DNA of 52,735 bases from Candidatus Latescibacter sp. (GTDB lineage: Bacteria > Latescibacterota > Latescibacteria > Latescibacterales > Latescibacteraceae), in the NCBI GenBank assembly GCA_030692375.1, contig JAUYCD010000020.1, forward strand, positions 1 through 52,735, given 5' to 3'. A program made the translations under genes and the position numbers. Under the pieces are notes generated by a model. The model was not told where the DNA came from, searched no databases, and saw only the letters and a program-made list of their open reading frames with translations. Position 1 is the stretch's first letter. Every line of letters starts with the position of its first letter. Positions 14,276 to 24,784 of the stretch are shown here, in pieces.

Positions 14276-16057
14276 TTAGAAGTTTTTAAGCTGTTTGGCT
14301 AAAATAACAATCGTGGCCGCATTGGCTAAAAAGGTGGCGGCATCCTTTACTGCGTTCCACGTAGCGAATGGTTTTGTTTCCGGCACATGAATGGTATCGC
14401 CGGCTTCTAAAGGAATGTTTTTGCTCAATTTGAAATATTGCCCGGTTTTGGCTTTAATAATCCGTGACTTGCTGATGTCTGCATTGAAATTGTACCCGCC
14501 TGCTTTCCCGATGTAAAAATTAACGTCCGATTTCTGCTCCCACTTGATGTAGCCGGGCTGCTGCACCGCTCCGGTAACCCTTACCAGATCACGGTTTGCC
14601 GGGATGGTGATAACATCCCTGTTCACCAAGAAGATATCATTGCTCAGATCGTTACCGGTGAAAAGCTTGACGAAATCAATAGAGATTTCTCCGGGCCGTG
14701 ACCGGGACAGGCTTTTGAAGAAGTCGTATTCCTGCGGGGTCATGTCCGCTACCGCCATTGTGCGAAGGCGCTGGTATTCAAGGTCCTGGGCGGTAGTGGA
14801 GGATCTTCGGATGATACGGGCCTCATCCAGGTTGGCATTCACGGTAAATCCGCCCGCCATAGTGATGATATCAGTCAGCGTGGTTTGATTCTCAGTGATG
14901 GGATATACGCCGGGATACCGCACTTCTCCGCCAAGGATCACATCGGCGATGGTTTTGTAGTCGAATTTCTTCCAGACGGAAAGACGGTCTGACTCATGGA
15001 TAAGATATTTGGGATCATCAGGATTGAGGTACAGGGCATCATAAAGGTTAATATCAATATTGATAAGGTCTTTCCCTTTACCATCAAAGCGGACGAGAGT
15101 GGCACGGGCAGTATCTGCTACCGAAGTGATTCCACTTCCAAATTTAACAAGATCAAGCACCCGGTCACCGGGTTTAAATTCATACCTGCCCGGGTTATTG
15201 ACATTGCCGTAAATAAACGTGCTGCCGATATAGGGAGGCACCTCGATACGGTCCCCGGCGCTCACGTAAGGGTTTGCTTCGAGATCGCCGAATTTACGGA
15301 AACGCTGGAGATCTACTGGAATATCCTTGTCTCCCCGGTGTACCACAATGGATCGCTGACTCGATTCTCTCCTGAGAGAAGGTTCATACTCTTGTTCCTG
15401 CTGACGGGTCAAGACCACATTTTGAATCTCCATTATATTTAAACCTGCACGTTCTACAACATCGGACACCCGCTGGATTGGATGGGAAACCACTGCACCC
15501 GCTCTGCTTACGACTCCAGAAACATACAAACGAAAATATCTCGGCCGGACGAGAGTCACGGAAATATCAATACCGCTGTATTTTTTGCTAACAAATTTTT
15601 TAATCAGTTCTTTCGATTCTGCGAGCGTATGGTCGGCAACTTCCACGGAACCGACAGTACGGATATTGACTGTGCCTTCAGGAGATACCGTTAAACGAAA
15701 CTGCATATCCAGTTCTCCCCAGAGATAGAGATTAAGCAAGTCGTCCGCACCGATGATATATTTGTCCGGGTCTATTTTATTCATGTCGAAAAAGACTGGC
15801 AAAGCCTCAGGAGCCGGTTGCTCCCCGGGTAGTAATTGTTCCTTTTTCTCTTCCGGAATAATACTTGGCACATTGACATCTCCCACTTCCATGCCTGCCT
15901 GGGGATTAACCGGCTGGTTGGCCATGGTTCTCAGACCCGGCAGATTGCTGTAATCTATCATTTGATCAAAAGACTGGCAGGGAGAAAACGGAGCATTAAT
16001 AAATACACACATCATGACGAGAAGAAAAACAAGAAATCGTTTTATGGAAAAACTCAC
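14276..16057 (-). CDS. Wza-like polysaccharide export outer-membrane protein with SLBB repeats
   Basis: The protein has a signal peptide (residues 1-28, ending near PFSPCQS), a Poly_export domain beginning at DKYIIGADDLLNLYLWG with FRLTVSPEGTVNIRTVGSVEVADHTLAE, and at least three SLBB repeats (YVSGVVSRAGAVVSHPIQ, FIYGNVNNPGRYEFKPGD, ILGGEVRYPGVYPITENQ, VTGAVQQPGYIKW). A C-terminal hydrophobic segment (WNAVKDAATFLANAATIVILA) may cross the outer membrane. At 593 residues it is longer than Wza, as usual for FCB proteins with extra SLBB units. The GTG at 16057 is chosen because AAGGAGG lies eight bases upstream; the open frame to 16081 would put the start before that site. First gene of the operon that runs to 5085. 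Confidence 0.93.
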   Translation of the reverse strand: MSFSIKRFLVFLLVMMCVFINAPFSPCQSFDQMIDYSNLPGLRTMANQPVNPQAGMEVGDVNVPSIIPEEKKEQLLPGEQPAPEALPVFFDMNKIDPDKYIIGADDLLNLYLWGELDMQFRLTVSPEGTVNIRTVGSVEVADHTLAESKELIKKFVSKKYSGIDISVTLVRPRYFRLYVSGVVSRAGAVVSHPIQRVSDVVERAGLNIMEIQNVVLTRQQEQEYEPSLRRESSQRSIVVHRGDKDIPVDLQRFRKFGDLEANPYVSAGDRIEVPPYIGSTFIYGNVNNPGRYEFKPGDRVLDLVKFGSGITSVADTARATLVRFDGKGKDLINIDINLYDALYLNPDDPKYLIHESDRLSVWKKFDYKTIADVILGGEVRYPGVYPITENQTTLTDIITMAGGFTVNANLDEARIIRRSSTTAQDLEYQRLRTMAVADMTPQEYDFFKSLSRSRPGEISIDFVKLFTGNDLSNDIFLVNRDVITIPANRDLVRVTGAVQQPGYIKWEQKSDVNFYIGKAGGYNFNADISKSRIIKAKTGQYFKLSKNIPLEAGDTIHVPETKPFATWNAVKDAATFLANAATIVILAKQLKNF

Positions 16058-16330: not shown

Positions 16331-16942
16331 ATGCTGATGGCGCCACTTATGAAAACCAATCATGATACTGTTCCTGATAAAGATCTCCTTTTCGATCTGG
16401 TAAACGGAGATATGGATGCCTTCGATGTTATCGTGGGAAGATACAAAAACAGGCTTATCAACTTTGTGTACCGTTTTGTCAAAGATTTTGATGTGGCCGA
16501 GGATATAGTCCAGGAAACATTCCTCAGAGTGTTTCGAAAAAGACGTGATTATAAAGCGATAGCGAATTTTTCCACGTGGATTTTCACCATAGCGGGCAAC
16601 CTTGCGAAAAGTGAACTCCGTCGCCGTAAACGATGGAAATTTCTTTCCATAGATGCTACAACCGAAGATGAGAAAACCTTCGATATTCTAGATCCCGGTA
16701 TGAAACCGGACCGGGCTACGGCTGTACGGATGCTGGATGAACATGTTCATGATTCCATCGATCTCCTTCAGAGCAAGTATAAGGAGGCATTGATTCTGAG
16801 GGATATCGAAGGGATGAGCTACCAGCAGATAGCCGAAATCATCGGTGTTCCGGTCGGAACGGTGAAATCGAGGGTAAACCGCGCCCGGATCAAGCTTCAG
16901 AAAAAACTGAAAGGGCATACCCCGCAGGATGAACTCCTGTAA
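16331..16942 (+). CDS. ECF-type RNA polymerase sigma factor
   Basis: A 203-residue sigma-70 family protein with region 2 (MDAFDVIVGRYKNRLINFVYRFVKDFDVAEDIVQETFLRVFRKRRDY, then FSTWIFTIAGNLAKSELRRRKR) and region 4 (LQSKYKEALILRDIEGMSYQQIAEIIGVPVGTVKSRVNRARIKLQKKL), and no regions 1.1 or 3, which defines the ECF class. The ATG has AGGAGG seven bases upstream. The next genes encode a zinc-finger anti-sigma factor and an inactive PDZ protease-like protein, so the system probably senses envelope stress. A matching ECF promoter lies just upstream. Confidence 0.95.
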   Translation: MLMAPLMKTNHDTVPDKDLLFDLVNGDMDAFDVIVGRYKNRLINFVYRFVKDFDVAEDIVQETFLRVFRKRRDYKAIANFSTWIFTIAGNLAKSELRRRKRWKFLSIDATTEDEKTFDILDPGMKPDRATAVRMLDEHVHDSIDLLQSKYKEALILRDIEGMSYQQIAEIIGVPVGTVKSRVNRARIKLQKKLKGHTPQDELL

Positions 16943-17039: not shown

Positions 17040-17063
17040 GTTCAATAATAAATTGTAATTGAA

Positions 17064-17213
17064 GAGCCAATTGCAAAAGTCGATTTTAAATGAAAAAATG
17101 ATAAGTTTTATTACTTCAGCCCCCTACCCCTCAGTCCCTTGCCGCTTCGCGGGAACGATGAAACCGTTTACCCCCGAAGGGGGCTGCTTCAAATATCGAC
17201 TTTTGCAAAAAGC
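17064..17213. repeat. Repeat element between sigma and anti-sigma genes
   Basis: The ends are inverted: TTGCAAAAGTCGAT near 17067 and ATCGACTTTTGCAA near 17194. Inside are CAGCCCCCT and AGGGGGCTG arms and a piece of family A (GCCGCTTCGCGGGAACGATG). The element is open in the anti-sigma frame, which gives a false N-terminal extension of that protein. Confidence 0.7.
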
Positions 17214-17262
17214 TCTGAATATTCAGAATAAAGCAATAATCAAACGGAGGTTCAACGATATC

Positions 17263-17847
17263 GTGAAAAGTGCTCATGAAGGGTTTTATACCTGTTCCAT
17301 CTTTCGAAAGTACATTATGGATTTTGTTGATGATGAACTTTCCGGGGAACTACGATCGGACTTCCTTGCTCACGCACTGAGTTGTCCGGTATGCGAAAGA
17401 GAGTTGCAGAAAATTCAATATGTAAGAAGGCTTCTGGCCAATCTTACCCCTTTAACCGCTTCACCTGAGTTTGATTTCGAATTGAGGGCGCGCCTCATTC
17501 GAGAGAATACTCTCATACGCAATCCATTCTATCGTATGCGCCTTTATATCAGTGAAAATATAAGGGCTTTCATCACCGTACCGGCTGCTGCGGCGCTCCT
17601 TATAGCGGGATTATTTTTCTACTCCGGGAACGGAGTGAATCATAATTCCGGCACTCAGATTACCAGCAAAATTACGATAGAAAATAATGATCCTGCTGTC
17701 CGGGCTTTTGCTGATGCTCCCGACGAAGATGTGAATTATGTGCTGGAGTCAGTCGGAGAGAGCGAGACCGGGATCGGTACTGCGCCACGGAACACCTCCG
17801 CGGCGAGAGCAATTTCAACCAATACTGTTACCTTGATAAGTTTTTAA
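17263..17847 (+). CDS. Zinc-finger anti-sigma factor, single membrane span
   Basis: The N-terminus has the zf-HC2 anti-sigma zinc-binding pattern: C11 then H37-x3-C41-x2-C44 (HALSCPVC), embedded in YIMDFVDDELSGELRSDFLAH. A single membrane helix follows at residues 103-121 (FITVPAAAALLIAGLFFYS), then a periplasmic tail of about 70 residues without a recognised domain. I choose the GTG at 17263, with GGAGG twelve bases upstream. The frame is open back to an ATG at 17059, but those 68 codons translate an intergenic repeat. It should bind and silence the ECF sigma factor encoded upstream. The stop overlaps the next start by one base (TAATG). Confidence 0.85.
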   Translation: MKSAHEGFYTCSIFRKYIMDFVDDELSGELRSDFLAHALSCPVCERELQKIQYVRRLLANLTPLTASPEFDFELRARLIRENTLIRNPFYRMRLYISENIRAFITVPAAAALLIAGLFFYSGNGVNHNSGTQITSKITIENNDPAVRAFADAPDEDVNYVLESVGESETGIGTAPRNTSAARAISTNTVTLISF

Positions 17848-18857
17848 TGGTGATGAAAAAAACTCTTTTATTCGGGAAAACATTCCTTGCCGCGGTGATA
17901 CTTTCCGGGGTAAACGGTCTGACTGCTCAAGCAGGCGCCCCGGGTGATAACTCCTCTATCCCGCTCGGGATAAAAGAGAAATTCGGCAGCTCTGTTTTTA
18001 CCGTACACGCCTATCCAAAAATGCCTTCCCTGAAAAACGGAGAAAACGGTATAAAAAAACGCCGTAATGTGGGAACTGCTTTCCCCCTGGACAACCAGGG
18101 GTATCTCCTGACCCTGAATTGTGTGTGCAAGGAAGCAGAAAAAATTATGATTCAGGGAAACCGGGGGGTAAAATTTGATGCCGTAGCAGTGGGATGTGAT
18201 GAAACCGGCAGAATCGCTGTCCTGAAAACTGGTATTCAGACCCTGTTTTCCATACCTCCCATCAGGCCGATGAATTCCATGAAACCTGGCAGCAAAGTAG
18301 TTTTCCTGGGAATTCCTCCGGGGAAAAATCTTTCTACCATGACAGGGATTGTACAGTCTGTTCATGAATCCGACGGCACCATCCTCGTTACAGTTTCAGG
18401 GGAGCCAGGCACTGCGGGTACCCCGGTTTTCGATGAAACGGGGCAGATTGTCGGGATTCTTGCATACCGCCTCGACGAGAAGGAAAATCCGGCTGTATTT
18501 CCATCGCCGAAAAAAACCTATGTGGTTTTTTCCATGGAATATGTTTCCGTAGTGGCGCGGTCTGTTATCCACAACGCTGAAGCCCGTGGCGGCTGGCTGG
18601 GTGTATCCGTTGCTGTCAACGGAGGTTTTATTCAGAATGTGGTCAAGGCAAGCCCCGCAGATAAATGCGGTATCAAACCCGGAGATACGATCGCAGAGAT
18701 TAACGGATCGCCGGTTTCTTCACCCGACTGCCTTGTCGGGGTGATGAGTTCCACCCGTTCGGGAGAAACAGTACGCCTCAAAATTCTCCGCAGCGGTGAA
18801 CCGCTCTTTTTTACCGTAAAACTGTCCGAACATCCCCCAATGACCCCCATGAAATAA
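17847..18857 (+). CDS. HtrA-like PDZ protein with all three catalytic residues replaced (pseudoprotease)
   Basis: The order is a signal peptide (about residues 1-28), a trypsin-like domain (40-235) and one PDZ domain (249-328, GGWLGVSVAVNGGFIQNVVKASPADKCGIKPGDTIAEINGSPV), as in DegP/DegS. When aligned by eye to HtrA motifs, the His of LTNNHVV is Cys92 (LTLNCVC), the Asp of D-(L/I)-AVL is Arg122 (TGRIAVLK), and the nucleophile of GNSGGP is Ala190 (GTAGTPVF). All three catalytic positions are lost while fold residues (G-T-A-F, D-x2-G-Y-L-L-T, G-x-I-V-G-I) remain, so it is probably a binding or sensing protein. It is coupled to the anti-sigma gene, and an in-frame ATG at 17853 is an alternative start. 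A role in protecting or presenting the anti-sigma factor is inference. Confidence 0.85.
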   Translation: MVMKKTLLFGKTFLAAVILSGVNGLTAQAGAPGDNSSIPLGIKEKFGSSVFTVHAYPKMPSLKNGENGIKKRRNVGTAFPLDNQGYLLTLNCVCKEAEKIMIQGNRGVKFDAVAVGCDETGRIAVLKTGIQTLFSIPPIRPMNSMKPGSKVVFLGIPPGKNLSTMTGIVQSVHESDGTILVTVSGEPGTAGTPVFDETGQIVGILAYRLDEKENPAVFPSPKKTYVVFSMEYVSVVARSVIHNAEARGGWLGVSVAVNGGFIQNVVKASPADKCGIKPGDTIAEINGSPVSSPDCLVGVMSSTRSGETVRLKILRSGEPLFFTVKLSEHPPMTPMK

Positions 18858-18976: not shown

Positions 18977-19017
18977 TTGACAAATCATCTAAACTGGTAA
19001 TATTATACATGTAGTAT
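18977..19017 (+). promoter_or_regulatory. Sigma-70-type promoter with overlapping BlaI-like operator
   Basis: TTGACA (18977-18982) and TATTAT (19001-19006) are 18 bases apart. The palindrome TACATGTA follows at 19006-19013, centred on 19009/19010 and extended by TAGTA on the right. BlaI/MecI repressors bind related TACA/TGTA dyads, so the repressor encoded 32 bases downstream probably controls its own operon. Confidence 0.55.
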
Positions 19018-19048: not shown

Positions 19049-19417
19049 ATGCAAAAACTGGAAATAGGAAAAGGGCAGATGAAAGTCCTTAGGGTGCTCT
19101 GGGAAAGAAAACGGGCAACCGCGCAGGAAATCACCGACATCCTGAACAAGACCGAACCCATCAAGTTCAGTACCGTATCTACATTTCTCCGCACCCTGGT
19201 GCATAAGGGAGTGGCGGGGTACGATATCGAGCAGCGCACCTACATCTACTATCCGCTGGTGAAAGAGGAGAGTATTGCGAACCATGCTGTGAAAGACCTG
19301 ATCGACCATGTTTTTGCGGGTTCCATGGAGGGGCTTGTCTCTTTTATTCTGAATAAAAAATATATATCGTTGGAAGAACTTGCGAAAATTCAGGAGAAGC
19401 TCGACAAAAAGGAGTAA
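19049..19417 (+). CDS. BlaI/MecI/CopY-family transcriptional repressor
   Basis: A 122-residue winged-helix repressor: LEIGKGQMKVLRVLWERKRATAQEITDILNKTEPIKFSTVSTFLRTLVHKGVAGYDIEQRTYIYYPLV is the full DNA-binding domain with the usual wing, and the helical C-terminal part mediates dimerisation. In beta-lactam resistance systems an M56 membrane peptidase (BlaR1/MecR1) cuts such repressors; here the next gene, six bases on, encodes an M56 protein. GGAGGAG precedes the ATG. There is no beta-lactamase or PBP gene nearby, so the regulated target is probably something else, perhaps the operon itself. Confidence 0.93.
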   Translation: MQKLEIGKGQMKVLRVLWERKRATAQEITDILNKTEPIKFSTVSTFLRTLVHKGVAGYDIEQRTYIYYPLVKEESIANHAVKDLIDHVFAGSMEGLVSFILNKKYISLEELAKIQEKLDKKE

Positions 19418-19422
19418 CAGCG

Positions 19423-22400
19423 ATGTGGGCGGCCTTTCTTAACCGGTTTCCCGGCTTGTCGGATATCACAATGCTTTTTGGACTCAACCTCCTGATCCAT
19501 TCTACCCTGATCATCCTCATCGGGCTGGGGGGACTCTATATCCTGAGGAAGAAGCGGAGAGGAACCGCTTCTCAATCGCTTTTGCTGTGGTTCTGCCTCA
19601 TTGCAGTGCTATTAACTTCTCCGGCGTTACTTATTTCTTCTGCTGCCGGGGTGAGAGGGCTGTATATACCAATTCCGCTGCCCCGTGTTCCGGCTGTCTC
19701 TGCGCCGGTTGTATCCGCACCGCAGGCTTACCCGCCCATATCGCCTTCAACCCCGACCGGAGGGCAATCAGGCCTGGAAGAAAACTCTGCCGGACAGCAG
19801 CCTGCTGGAAAGATACTGGCAACTGCGCCTCCCGCCAAACAACAGCCGGTTACGACAGCGCCGGTGAAACCACGATCTGTTCCCGCCGCGCCGAAATCAG
19901 CTCTCTTGCCGAAGAAAACAGTAATTCCACATACATCTACTCACAGTATACTGCCAAGTATTGCAATCCTGTTTTCTCTCTTCTGGATCGCGCTCTCCCT
20001 GTTTCTCGCTTTGAGGTTCGGAGCGATTACCCTGTATATCCGCCGTATCCGCCGCCTGTCTTCACCCGCCGAACCGCGCCATACCGCACTGTGCAGGGCG
20101 GTCGCCGATGAACTGGGGATTTCTGCGCCCCAAATCCTCCAGAGTCCCTATGTAACGAGCATCCTCCTCACCGGGTTGTTCCGTCCGGCGATTCTCCTGC
20201 CTTCCGGCGGGAACGAAATTGTCCTGGCTACCCGTGAGGTTTTCCTCCATGAACTCGCCCACCTGGCGCGCCGTGACCCGTTCTGGCTCCACCTGTGCCA
20301 ACTGGCGAAAATTATTTTTCCGTTCCAGCCCCTTTTATGGGTACTCTCACGGCATATAGAGGAGTTGAGCGATTTTGCCTGCGATGATTTTGTCATCCGT
20401 CACACCGGTTTGAACAGGCCGTATGCGACTCAGCTTTTCAATCTCGCCCGATCGTTCCAGCCCCAGGGCATCGAGGCGAGAGCCGGATCAGGCATTCTTT
20501 CCTCCCGATTCCCGCTTTTGCGGCGCATCGAGCGAATCCTTGACAATACATATACCCGTCACATTACAGCGAGCGCAAACGAGGTCATGTCTTTCTCGAT
20601 CCTCTTCCTCTGTGCGGTCACCATGACGGGATTCATCGGTTTACGCGCAGAGGGCGCAGTCGGCAAAACCTATGCCTCTGAACACCGCTTACGGGATAAT
20701 GGGAAACCCAAAGCGAAGATGAGTACTCTTCTCCATAAACCGCTTTCTGCCGTACTCGCCGGACGTACCATGATACAGGAGCAGGCAGCCGCGGAGGAAA
20801 GCCGTGAAGAAGAAACTACACCGGCTGGAGAGCGGGAAAACGATCCTTCTCCATCTGCCGAATCCATTCCGCCCGCCGGTGAATCTACTCCTGCAGAATC
20901 GCCAGCCCCGGTTATCCTGGCTATGGCGTCCATAGATCAGGAAATGACACGGATTTCATCCCAGCCCGATGCAGTTTCCTCGCAAAAACCGGAGGAACAG
21001 AAACCGGGAGCCGACGCAGATAGTGCCGTTTTTGAAGTTCGCCCTGAAGAAGCGAAGCCGGTGCAAAAGGAACTGTCTGGAAAAACCACCGCATCGTCTG
21101 CCACCGAATCCCGCGAAAAATCTTCTTCAAAAACGGAAAACGCACAATCCATGCAATTCTTCCCCGATCTCCGTGAACTCAGTTCTGCTGTTACCGACAA
21201 AAGGGAAACAGTGACTGCCAAGACTGGCCCGCTGGAGATTTCCATCCCTGGCGGGCTTCCTTCCGCTCTTCGCGAAAGCCTGGAGAGCGGCCAGCAGAAT
21301 CCGGTGTGGTCACCTTCGGGTAAGATTATCGCGTTTACAGGTAGCAGTGGCATGGGTATCTGGGCGGTTTCAGCGCAGGGAGGAAAGCCGATTCTCGTTC
21401 TTGACAACACGAACGAACCTGTTTCCAAAGAAATCGTATCGTCGGGGGGAATTTCCCGCACCCTCTGCTTCACACCCGACGGCAGGGAAATTACATACTT
21501 GAAATTCATCCCCAAACCCGCAGGAAGCGGTGTAAAAAAGGAAGCATCTGCGGAAGCTGTCTCCCTCATGCCGGTCATCGAGAATATCAATCTTTTCACC
21601 GGCGAGCGGCGGGTTATTGCGGAGGGCGCGACCGAAGGCTCCTGGAGCAGGGACGGGCGATATTTCGTATACGCGGAAGGCGATTCGCGCGGCATCGGCG
21701 TCCTCGACACTTCGACCGGGAAACGGCGAGTGATTTCGGAAACCGGGCTTTCGCCCTGCCTGACCCCAGACGGCCTCTCCATCATTTATGTGGACCAGGG
21801 CTGGGTTGATCTCTTCTATCAGCTTTACCGGGCGCCCATCGCCGGAGGGAAACCGGAGCAGCTCACCACCGACGGGAACTGGTGGGGGCCCCAAATCTCC
21901 CCCGACGGCGAATGGGTGCTTTGCACGGGATACGGAATCTCCCGATACAGTCAGTACGCTCTGCTGCGGGTTTTCAACCTTCGCGAACGCATGAGTTACT
22001 TTATCAGGGTCGAAGGCGCGGAGACCGCTGAAATGGGCGCCTGGTCACCCACCGGCCGCCAATTCTGCTACACTCGCATCAGTGACATGATAAAAGATGG
22101 ATTCACCTCCCGCCGGAGCACCATATACATCGATAATTTCCAGTCGTCGAGCCTCAACCGGCCGGCGGCGGAAACAACCAAACCCTCAGAATTCAAACTG
22201 GTCGGCAACTTTCCCAACCCGTTCAATCCTTCCACTACGATCCGCTTCTCTATCCCCTCGGCGGGGCCAGCGGAACTGGAAGTATACAACATGATGGGCC
22301 AGAAAATCCGCTCGCTCGTCTCCGGCCGCCTGGAAGCGGGAATGCATTCCATCGTCTGGAACGGACGCGACCAGGAGAACAGACCGGTGTCATCCGGAAC

Positions 22401-22464
22401 CTATGTGGCTCGACTGAAGATGGAAGGAAAGGTTGAGACCCGCCGGATGACGCTGGTTAAATAA
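19423..22464 (+). CDS. M56 (BlaR1-like) membrane peptidase fused to PD40 propeller and C-terminal sorting domain
   Basis: Three modules are joined in 1013 residues. First is an M56 peptidase: membrane helices near residues 12-40, 48-72, 178-205 and 384-405, with the zinc motif H276-E-L-A-H280 in REVFLHELAHLARRDPF. Second, after a low-complexity Pro/Glu/Ser linker (about 425-600), is a WD40-like PD40/TolB-type propeller (about 620-900; repeats such as NPVWSPSGKIIAFTGSSG, TEGSWSRDGRYFVYAEG, PQISPDGEWVLCTG, MGAWSPTGRQFCYTR). Third is a sorting/FlgD-like module at about 925-1013, starting VGNFPNPFNPSTTIRF and ending in SGTYVARLKMEGKVETRRMTLVK. BlaR1 proteins normally carry a penicillin-binding sensor; here the propeller takes that place. 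The repressor gene upstream supports a sensor-protease role. Confidence 0.9.
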   Translation: MWAAFLNRFPGLSDITMLFGLNLLIHSTLIILIGLGGLYILRKKRRGTASQSLLLWFCLIAVLLTSPALLISSAAGVRGLYIPIPLPRVPAVSAPVVSAPQAYPPISPSTPTGGQSGLEENSAGQQPAGKILATAPPAKQQPVTTAPVKPRSVPAAPKSALLPKKTVIPHTSTHSILPSIAILFSLFWIALSLFLALRFGAITLYIRRIRRLSSPAEPRHTALCRAVADELGISAPQILQSPYVTSILLTGLFRPAILLPSGGNEIVLATREVFLHELAHLARRDPFWLHLCQLAKIIFPFQPLLWVLSRHIEELSDFACDDFVIRHTGLNRPYATQLFNLARSFQPQGIEARAGSGILSSRFPLLRRIERILDNTYTRHITASANEVMSFSILFLCAVTMTGFIGLRAEGAVGKTYASEHRLRDNGKPKAKMSTLLHKPLSAVLAGRTMIQEQAAAEESREEETTPAGERENDPSPSAESIPPAGESTPAESPAPVILAMASIDQEMTRISSQPDAVSSQKPEEQKPGADADSAVFEVRPEEAKPVQKELSGKTTASSATESREKSSSKTENAQSMQFFPDLRELSSAVTDKRETVTAKTGPLEISIPGGLPSALRESLESGQQNPVWSPSGKIIAFTGSSGMGIWAVSAQGGKPILVLDNTNEPVSKEIVSSGGISRTLCFTPDGREITYLKFIPKPAGSGVKKEASAEAVSLMPVIENINLFTGERRVIAEGATEGSWSRDGRYFVYAEGDSRGIGVLDTSTGKRRVISETGLSPCLTPDGLSIIYVDQGWVDLFYQLYRAPIAGGKPEQLTTDGNWWGPQISPDGEWVLCTGYGISRYSQYALLRVFNLRERMSYFIRVEGAETAEMGAWSPTGRQFCYTRISDMIKDGFTSRRSTIYIDNFQSSSLNRPAAETTKPSEFKLVGNFPNPFNPSTTIRFSIPSAGPAELEVYNMMGQKIRSLVSGRLEAGMHSIVWNGRDQENRPVSSGTYVARLKMEGKVETRRMTLVK

Positions 22465-22555: not shown

Positions 22556-24784
22556 ATGTACCGTACTCATCACACCATGCAGAACGCCGGGCTGTGGTTT
22601 CTTTACATCCTGGCTGCGGCGATTTTGTTCCTTGCCGCACCTGTGGCCGCGCAGGAATCGACCGTCAGCTATCCCAACGGTAACTTCATCTGGGACATGG
22701 AAATCCAGGGCAACTATGTCTGGTGCGCAACAACCGGGAGTCTTGTCCGATGGAACAAAGCGGACGGAACCTACCGTCAGTACACCGAAAAAGACGGGCT
22801 TGCGGATTACGGGGTTTATTCCATAACCAAGGATGCCCAGGGCAATCTCTGGCTCGGAACGAGGAAAGGAGCACAGCGCTTTGACGGCGCCGCGTTTACC
22901 ACGTTCAATACCGCGAACAGCGGGCTGGTGAACAACGCCGTTCATGCTGTCGCAGTGGCGCAAAACGGCGTGATCTGGATCGGTACCACAGCAGGTCTTT
23001 CCCGTTTCGACGGGAAAACCTGGACGAATTACACAACCCAGAACAGCGGCATCCCCTATAACTATATCAATTCCCTTGCGGTGGACCGAAACGGTGTGGT
23101 CTGGCTCGCGCACTATGAGTATCTGAAATATAGGGGAGTGAGCAGCTTTGACGGAACCACCTGGAAAACCTACACCACAGAAAACAGCGGGTTGAAAGAC
23201 AATTCCGTCATCACCATCGCGGTGGATGACAAGAACACAAAGTGGTTCGGCGCATCCCTGACACTCATCAGCTTCGACGGGCAGACCTGGGCCGAGCATG
23301 CGGTTCCCTATGTAAACGATATGACCGTGGACAGCAAGGGGGCGCTCTGGGCCGCCGCGGGCGGCGTGCCCTCCGGAATCTCACCGCCCTCGGCGTACAG
23401 TTTGTCGAGCTATAACGGCAAGTCCTGGACCACATACCCCCTTGACGCCAAATTTGACCGCCCCACACTGGCTTACACCCGGGTCCGTGTCGATGCCGAC
23501 GGCACGGTCTGGTTTGTCACTCAGGAGTATTATGGGTCGTTGAGCCTCCACAGCTATAACGGCACGATGGTCAAAACTTACCTTACTGATGGCCCTCTCA
23601 ACTATTCTTTCTCGGGAATTGCGATAGACAGCATGAACCGGAAATGGTTCGCCACTTACCACGGCGTCTCGTGTTTCGATGGCAAGTCCTGGGTAAATCA
23701 CCTCTTTACCCTTACGACTGATGATGTCGGCACGACTGTGAATCTTCAAAGCACGAATTTATTTGCTAATTGGATTAAGGGGATAGTAGTAGACCGGGAA
23801 AATGTGGTATGGGTATGCTCCGAAATCGGTCATGTTGCAAGCTATGACGGGAAAGCATGGAAACTCTATACTCATACCAGGGACTCAACATTCGTGGGCG
23901 GACTTACCTATACTATTGTTGTGGACCGGAATAATGTCAAATGGTTTGCCGGAATATATATCAAGAGCTACGACGGGAAAACCTGGACAAACTATCAACA
24001 ATACAAGACCTTCGCGGCGTACTCCGGGGCAGTGGATAATGATAATGTAAAATGGTTCGGCACGTTCAAAGAAGGCGTCTGGAGCTTCGACGGCACAACC
24101 TGGACGAATTATTATACTTCCAACAGCCCGCTCAAAGGCTCTATCTTGAGTGCAGCGGCAGACCAGAACAACGTCAAATGGTTCGCCAGCAATGATGGTA
24201 TGATTTATAGCTTCGACGGCGCAGCCTGGAAAACATACGGCCAGGAGGTCACCGGCGTTAAGTATCCCTATAGTCTCTATGTGGATCGCAACAATGTCCT
24301 GTGGGTGCTTCACAACCCCCTGATATCTTTCGACGGTAAAACCTGGAAAACCTGGCCTGACATTAAGCTCGGGTCTCTGAGCGCCATTGCATTGGATGCC
24401 GACGGTTATATGTGGGTTGCCTCGATCTACAGCGTCGGCGAGGGCGGCACACTCTCCGCGATGAAGCTCTCCACCGGGCCGACCGTGGTGGCGGAAACCG
24501 TGCCGGTGAATTTCGCCATCACCGGGAATTATCCCAACCCATTCAACCCTTCCACCACCATCTCCTTCTCACTGACTGAAACCGGGCGGGCCAGCCTGGC
24601 AGTCTACAATGTAACCGGCCAGAAGGTACGTGAGCTCGTGTCAGGAACCCTGCCTGCCGGGTGGCATTCCGTGGTCTGGGACGGCCGTGACCAGAACGGC
24701 AAACCCGTTTCGTCCGGGATATACATTTCCCGCCTGATGATGAGAGATAAGGTTACGGCGAACCGGATGCTGCTGATGAAGTAG
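22556..24784 (+). CDS. Secreted two-component-regulator-propeller protein with C-terminal sorting domain
   Basis: The 742-residue product begins with a signal peptide (LWFLYILAAAILFLAAPVAAQES). More than a dozen Reg_prop-like units follow to about residue 640, each with a pattern like SFDGKTWTNYTTQNSGI... then VDRNGVVWLA, which should fold into one or two beta-propellers. Residues 655-742 are a sorting/FlgD-like module (ITGNYPNPFNPSTTISFSLTE to SGIYISRLMMRDKVTANRMLLMK) almost the same as that of the upstream gene. Unlike hybrid two-component sensors, it has no membrane anchor and no kinase. The ATG at 22556 has AAGGGAG upstream; the open frame to 22502 is not used. It is probably exported and anchored or released by a sorting system; its ligand is unknown. 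Confidence 0.88.
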   Translation: MYRTHHTMQNAGLWFLYILAAAILFLAAPVAAQESTVSYPNGNFIWDMEIQGNYVWCATTGSLVRWNKADGTYRQYTEKDGLADYGVYSITKDAQGNLWLGTRKGAQRFDGAAFTTFNTANSGLVNNAVHAVAVAQNGVIWIGTTAGLSRFDGKTWTNYTTQNSGIPYNYINSLAVDRNGVVWLAHYEYLKYRGVSSFDGTTWKTYTTENSGLKDNSVITIAVDDKNTKWFGASLTLISFDGQTWAEHAVPYVNDMTVDSKGALWAAAGGVPSGISPPSAYSLSSYNGKSWTTYPLDAKFDRPTLAYTRVRVDADGTVWFVTQEYYGSLSLHSYNGTMVKTYLTDGPLNYSFSGIAIDSMNRKWFATYHGVSCFDGKSWVNHLFTLTTDDVGTTVNLQSTNLFANWIKGIVVDRENVVWVCSEIGHVASYDGKAWKLYTHTRDSTFVGGLTYTIVVDRNNVKWFAGIYIKSYDGKTWTNYQQYKTFAAYSGAVDNDNVKWFGTFKEGVWSFDGTTWTNYYTSNSPLKGSILSAAADQNNVKWFASNDGMIYSFDGAAWKTYGQEVTGVKYPYSLYVDRNNVLWVLHNPLISFDGKTWKTWPDIKLGSLSAIALDADGYMWVASIYSVGEGGTLSAMKLSTGPTVVAETVPVNFAITGNYPNPFNPSTTISFSLTETGRASLAVYNVTGQKVRELVSGTLPAGWHSVVWDGRDQNGKPVSSGIYISRLMMRDKVTANRMLLMK

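Follow-up and report, generated by a model that had tools for sequence, protein, structure and literature searches.

On the forward strand of a 52,735-nucleotide stretch of DNA from Candidatus Latescibacter sp. (GenBank assembly GCA_030692375.1, contig JAUYCD010000020.1; the whole stretch is referred to here as the window), positions 19423 to 22464 encode a BlaR1-like receptor protease of the M56 family whose sensor appears to stem from the cargo of a type IX secretion system (T9SS). We propose, with a probability of about 0.6, that this receptor with its transplanted sensor controls the operon of a T9SS cargo protein, and that the sorting domain at its C-terminus addresses the sensor to the T9SS or to the outer membrane. 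A preliminary description of the window, in which a propeller was thought to read an extracytoplasmic cue and the upstream BlaI-type repressor to be the substrate, is right in outline as far as the mechanism is concerned, but it overlooks that the sorting domain marks the sensor as derived from T9SS cargo. It also passes over the T9SS-sorted propeller encoded downstream, the exchange of propellers between sensors and cargo, the separate histories of the protease and sensor halves and the probable reach of BlaI over the whole operon and, in sister genomes, over unlinked genes for secreted propeller proteins.

The gene is a single open frame that starts with ATG, runs without interruption and encodes 1013 amino acids. 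Its product matches Peptidase_M56 (PF05569; residues 176-370, positions 19948..20532; 64.5 bits, cut-off 31), PD40 (31.5 bits, cut-off 20.9) and FlgD_ig (residues 946-997; 31.4 bits, cut-off 27) in Pfam, and the T9SS type A sorting domain TIGR04183 in NCBIfam (residues 930-1009; 32.6 bits, cut-off 23). Hydropathy analysis places transmembrane (TM) segments at residues 23-41 and 53-71 (TM1 and TM2; positions 19489..19635), 179-197 (TM3, within the M56 domain) and 388-406 (TM4; 20584..20640). This is the layout of BlaR1, with two TMs ahead of a periplasmic loop, one on either side of the protease domain and an extracytoplasmic C-terminus, sidedness being assigned by homology only. In the PDB, the protease part is closest by sequence to Staphylococcus aureus BlaR1 and the sensor part to a TolB-like propeller. 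The match to the BlaR1 model itself reaches 52.9 bits at a cut-off of 400, and no Pfam match to a penicillin-binding (class D beta-lactamase-like) C-terminal sensor is present in the protein. The profile matches and the hydropathy bear out what had been noticed before, namely an M56 domain with a HELAH motif, four helices, a propeller and a sorting module in one frame. The order of these parts stands as well, but a predicted-disordered linker of about 200 residues between TM4 and the propeller had been overlooked. This low-complexity segment (residues 407-610; 20641..21252) consists to 63% of P, E, S, T, Q, K, N, D and G and is rich in Pro, Glu, Ser and Thr. In an AlphaFold2 model, residues 400-601 have pLDDT values below 50; those of the protease, the propeller and the sorting domain mostly lie between 70 and 90, the underlying alignment being shallow (six rows), and the C-terminal 413 residues modelled alone reach a mean pLDDT of 79.8. 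The predicted sensor propeller (residues 620-912; 21280..22158) finds its top Foldseek matches among the propellers of TolB and of S9 peptidases.

The subfamily to which this protein belongs, defined by scores above 200 bits in a search of 64 Latescibacterota genomes, is restricted to four genomes of one family (f1), two of which contain many paralogues. Only draft genomes are involved, one or more of them derived from a metagenome, and the number of M56 proteins detected per genome ranges from 2 to about 9. Twelve complete proteins combine the M56 domain with a propeller and a sorting domain, and two more are truncated by contig ends. The 3.9-Mb draft genome to which the window contributes one contig contains four M56 genes; on its contig C109, a second copy encodes 1034 amino acids with an identical order of parts (32% identity over the full length, E 2e-144). 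In a contig scan that relied on two narrow peptide patterns, and by which distant cases would be missed, the subfamily was detected in 'Candidatus Latescibacterota bacterium Zod_Metabat.481', and the only match beyond the Latescibacterota was a weak one in Verrucomicrobiales to part of the protease domain.

The sorting domain of the sensors is, by sequence, in working order. In the window protein it occupies residues 921-1013 (22183..22461; NFPNPFNPSTTI...MTLVK) and scores 139.6 bits against a hidden Markov model (HMM) built from the sorting domains of the downstream cargo genes. The sensors as a group score 121-145 bits, compared with 102-151 bits for the cargo proteins in a leave-one-out assessment, and these cargo-like scores rule out a degenerate sorting domain on sensors of this type. 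In all twelve sensors, the NPFN motif and the full set of strands are kept and the C-terminal residue is a lysine. T9SS machinery is encoded in the same genome, as judged from SprA (670.6 bits, cut-off 200) and the sortase PorU (615.7 bits, cut-off 420), the two components that were checked; SprA also exceeds its cut-off in nine of ten other genomes of the phylum. The sorting domain that had been called contradictory on an inner-membrane protein is hence real, and the plain Ig-like fold that had been considered for it fits worse than a working address.

Sensor and cargo propellers belong, to judge from their joint phylogenetic tree, to one exchanging family. The sensors are interspersed among the cargo proteins, and their union in one clade is rejected by the approximately unbiased (AU) test (p 1.7e-25), by which one ancient fusion of M56 and propeller with no subsequent exchange is ruled out. 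Several sensors group with the cargo of their own operon: that of locus L057 with its first cargo protein (cL057a; support 100/99, 57.7% identity), those of L054 and L059 with their own cargo (cL054b and cL059b; 100/99), and the sensor of L006 with its own cargo (89/95). Taken together with the scattering of the sensors, these pairings indicate that M56 receptors have repeatedly taken sensors from adjacent T9SS cargo, or have exchanged them with cargo. Such own-operon pairing is not universal, since the cargo protein of the window is a Reg_prop protein and no close relative of the window sensor.

Within the window protein, the protease and the sensor halves have separate histories according to their trees. 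The protease half groups with L048 (support 95/96) and the propeller half with L058 (100/99), and a grouping of the window protein with L058 in the protease tree is rejected (AU p 6.6e-6; the pair was chosen after the propeller matches had been viewed). A uniform co-descent of the two halves is thereby ruled out, and we conclude that cassettes have been swapped. For L054 and L059, co-descent is not rejected (p 0.41), so that the low identity of their protease regions may be plain fast divergence; the phylogenetic groups that were tested had in part been picked after inspection. Propeller and sorting domain travel as one cassette. In two orthologous receptor pairs, the propellers are about 75% and the sorting domains about 73% identical, compared with 56% and 43% for the protease regions and 66% and 47% for BlaI. 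Between paralogues, the identity of the propellers falls to about one third, in line with receptors that bind different ligands.

The genetic neighborhood of these receptors is equally regular. A BlaI-type gene lies directly upstream in all 15 subfamily loci with upstream sequence, which supports the earlier expectation that relatives with the same domain order would be found and that blaI would always come first. In the window, this partner is a BlaI/MecI/CopY-type winged-helix repressor of 122 amino acids (19049..19417, forward strand; Penicillinase_R, 91.9 bits), in keeping with the BlaR1-like plan that had been proposed; its stop codon and the start of the M56 gene are five bases apart. 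At most loci, the blaI gene overlaps the M56 start codon or is separated from it by a gap of a few bases, an arrangement that suggests translational coupling. In all 10 complete loci where the following gene is intact, this gene runs in the same direction and its product combines a propeller (Reg_prop or PD40) and a T9SS sorting domain; at L057, three sorting-domain propeller genes follow the M56 gene. Because the loci share ancestry, these ten cases are not to be multiplied as independent events, but with only about 71 FlgD_ig matches in the entire 3.9-Mb genome, the association is not background. The cargo protein of the window (22556..24784, forward strand; 742 amino acids) carries a hydrophobic, signal-peptide-like N-terminus (by eye), a Reg_prop propeller (85.9 bits) and a T9SS sorting domain (FlgD_ig, 38.4 bits; TIGR04183, 27.1 bits, cut-off 23), and its ATG at 22556 follows an AGGGAG ribosome site. 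The 91-bp gap between the M56 and the cargo gene contains no promoter or terminator match, so that blaI, the M56 gene and the secreted propeller gene likely form a single operon.

We suggest that BlaI would repress its own operon, comprising blaI, the M56 gene and the gene for the secreted propeller protein, and that the M56 protein would be an inner-membrane protein whose zinc site faces the cytoplasm. The flexible tether of about 200 residues would let the head, formed by the propeller and the sorting domain, work far from this membrane, at the T9SS translocon or at the outer membrane; judged by chain length, an unfolded tether of 200 residues should be long enough to span the periplasm. Once the head meets its cue, whether a propeller ligand or an interaction with the secretion machine, the M56 protease would be activated and would inactivate BlaI, presumably by cleavage, and the operon would be switched on, exported propeller protein included. 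The sorting domain would, in this scheme, physically engage the T9SS. The arrangement suggests that the kind of protein that is exported also serves as the receptor for its own control.

We tentatively extend this proposal to a trans-envelope receptor, a possibility that we hold with some reserve. The translocon at the outer membrane would engage the sorting domain, or the propeller would be drawn through SprA to the cell surface, with the protease remaining in the inner membrane. An outside ligand or the occupancy of the secretion machine would set the state of the tether and thereby switch the protease, and, if this is true, a tethered mimic would govern the production of the same kind of exported protein.

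It is rather unlikely, in our view, that the receptor is a plain periplasmic ligand sensor, in which the propeller reads a soluble cue and the sorting domain is a passenger from the cargo fusion that acts as an Ig-like cap. Hitch-hiking would be expected of a sorting domain that moves together with its propeller as one cassette, and relatives of the receptor with tetratricopeptide repeats (TPRs) manage without a sorting domain. A passenger should, however, decay. This has apparently happened in another family of the phylum (f10), whose M56 proteins, although they may also be quoted in favor of a passenger, bear FlgD_ig-like C-termini without NPFN, some with extra terminal residues, that score 55-75 bits against the cargo HMM. 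The twelve sensors of the window type have, on the contrary, all retained the motif, the strands, the terminal lysine and the cargo-like scores; across both orthologous pairs, conservation of the sorting domain equals that of the propeller and exceeds that of the protease. We consider it very improbable that the protein is a split product, whose linker is cut by the M56 half or by a signal peptidase so that the propeller and the sorting domain are exported as ordinary cargo: the C-terminal half does resemble a free cargo protein, the linker is long and unconserved (mean identity about 14%), and BlaR1 is known to cleave itself (PMC9834060, PMC7593790), but a separate cargo gene already lies downstream in all ten complete loci, the linker is held at 182-248 residues in the 12 complete members, and the TPR variants likewise have a spacer. 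A sequencing or assembly join, or a frameshift fusion, of two genes, which the preliminary description had named together with a lack of homologues as grounds for giving up its interpretation, can be dismissed, since the domain order recurs in eleven other complete proteins (twelve in all) from four independent assemblies, one of them being the second copy on another contig of the same genome.

Several observations weigh against our proposal. We know of no precedent for an inner-membrane protein as a T9SS client. The FlgD_ig-like C-termini of the f10 proteins look like worn-out or repurposed sorting domains. In two members of the same M56 subfamily, L060 (5345-7420) and L061 (3998-5986), TPRs replace the propeller and the sorting domain behind a similar spacer; neither the tether nor the subfamily thus requires a sorting domain, and the length of the tether alone proves nothing. 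Furthermore, although the HExxH motif (HELAH in the window protein, residues 276-280; 20248..20262) is conserved in 16 of 16 subfamily members, the third zinc-ligand position is occupied by Asp in 15 of them (D317 in the window protein; 20371..20373) and by Glu in L006 only. This position corresponds to E242 of S. aureus BlaR1, and the Glu ligand of gluzincins (E242 XXXD; PMC9834060) is therefore lacking in the window protein. Hence, protease activity is not to be assumed; an Asp at position 317 may be able to bind zinc, and a working zinc site is likely.

Upstream of every blaI gene of the subfamily, a TTGACA box precedes an AT-rich stretch, in which a dyad is often present. In the window, the top promoter match between positions 15900 and 25000 (TTGACA, 18 nucleotides, TATTAT; 18977..19006, forward strand; 11/12) lies ahead of the blaI-M56 operon, and its -10 box is overlapped by a candidate BlaI operator, ATTATACATGTAGTAT (19002..19017, forward strand), with the dyad core TACATGTA and 12 of 16 positions palindromic. 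This is the sole copy in the window even when three mismatches are allowed, and the genome contains no further exact or one-mismatch copy. The circuit of the window therefore looks local, and no good second site that would place this operator in a larger regulon of its own genome was found. The pattern TTGACA-N14-20-GTAAATTTA occurs 13 times in the four genomes, compared with one occurrence of a reversed control; seven of these sites precede blaI-M56 genes, five precede unlinked genes for secreted proteins (three Reg_prop, one PD40 and one FGE-like, families assigned by eye), and one cannot be assigned to a clear target. No copy of the GTAAATTTA operator is present in the genome of the window. 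The classical TACA-NN-TGTA operator is not present in all loci, and operators vary between paralogues. We infer that BlaI binds the candidate operators, and it probably targets the operon as a whole as well as, in sister genomes, unlinked genes for secreted propeller proteins. Behind one TTGACA...GTAAATTTA operator of the type found at BlaI-M56 operons lies, at L132:794-1966, a gene for a lipoprotein that by eye resembles FGE/sulfatase-modifying factors, and a protein resembling it is encoded upstream of the BlaI-M56 pair at L056 (2631-4145).

Further observations concern the diversity of M56 proteins in these genomes and the genes next to the operon. The TPR variant at L060 is followed by a Reg_prop gene with a sorting domain and by an M16 peptidase gene, and that at L061 by an M16 peptidase gene. 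Other M56 proteins of 830-1330 amino acids occur in the same genomes as the subfamily (L005:5708-8209, L062:733-4587 and L066:4475-8455); CarboxypepD_reg in L005 and L062 and a terminal AhpC/TSA domain in L062 represent additional types of M56 sensors. The f10 proteins at L031, L035, L043, L045 and L047 are short, BlaI-partnered M56 proteins with an FlgD_ig-like end, some with an ExbD/TolR-like stretch, and possibly derive from an independent, decayed fusion of M56 and sorting domain. Genes for an ECF sigma factor (16331-16942) and for a zf-HC2 anti-sigma-like protein (17059-17847) lie upstream of the operon in the window and are directly followed by that for an HtrA/DegP-like protein (Trypsin_2 and PDZ; 17847-18857). 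The catalytic His and Ser of the latter appear by eye to be replaced (TLNCVCK, GTAGTP), and it may be a pseudoprotease sensor.

To our knowledge, hardly any M56 receptors are known outside beta-lactam resistance, and no description of M56/BlaR1 proteins with a propeller or a T9SS sorting domain was found in the literature searched. A whole family of such receptors appears here to have been turned to the regulation of secreted proteins, by borrowing sensors from the controlled products and by recombining its protease halves with different sensors. A working sorting domain would permit type IX export or the outside world to be sensed from the inner membrane by a single protein. Through this module, the function of the many secreted propeller proteins in uncultured bacteria with a T9SS also becomes approachable.

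The components of the receptor can be set against several known systems. The sensor propeller finds TolB as its top structural match but is only about 15% identical in fold matches and scores 37.7 bits with the TolB model, whose cut-off is 343. With T9SS type A cargo (TIGR04183) the receptor shares an intact C-terminal sorting domain with cargo-level scores; unlike such cargo, it has no cleavable Sec signal peptide and starts with a TM helix of its four-TM anchor. In the BlaR1/MecR1-BlaI/MecI systems, occupation of the sensor shifts the cytoplasm-facing protease toward the cleavage of BlaI (PMC9834060, PMC7593790). The window protein resembles these receptors in its four TMs, its cytoplasm-facing HExxH protease, its extracytoplasmic C-terminal sensor, the adjacent blaI gene, the operator-like dyad at the promoter and the conservation of D210 of BlaR1 as D285. 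It differs from them in that a propeller and a T9SS sorting domain on a tether of about 200 amino acids replace the penicillin-binding sensor, the third zinc ligand is usually Asp instead of Glu, and the linked genes encode secreted propellers instead of a beta-lactamase or a penicillin-binding protein. PorA of Porphyromonas gingivalis is a T9SS sorting-domain protein that acts upstream of PorXY-SigP and whose sorting domain binds PorV (PMC7712824). In both cases, a protein with a T9SS sorting domain would feed a surface signal into gene regulation; PorA is a separate outer-membrane or surface protein acting on a two-component system, whereas here the sorting domain and the regulator form one polypeptide anchored in the inner membrane.

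By analogy, the closest logic is that of RsgI of Clostridium thermocellum, a membrane regulator whose surface modules are related to the secreted enzymes that it induces, the GH10 module of RsgI6 being 57% identical to Xyn10D (PMC4711584). The likeness is one of logic only, as M56 and BlaI take the place of the RsgI N-terminal domain and its SigI partner. RsgI is an anti-sigma factor of a Gram-positive bacterium, whereas a protease-repressor pair would operate here, with an outer membrane and a T9SS intervening. In both systems, the surface sensor of the regulator copies a secreted product, as is illustrated by the sensor propeller of L057, which is 57.7% identical to the propeller of its own cargo.

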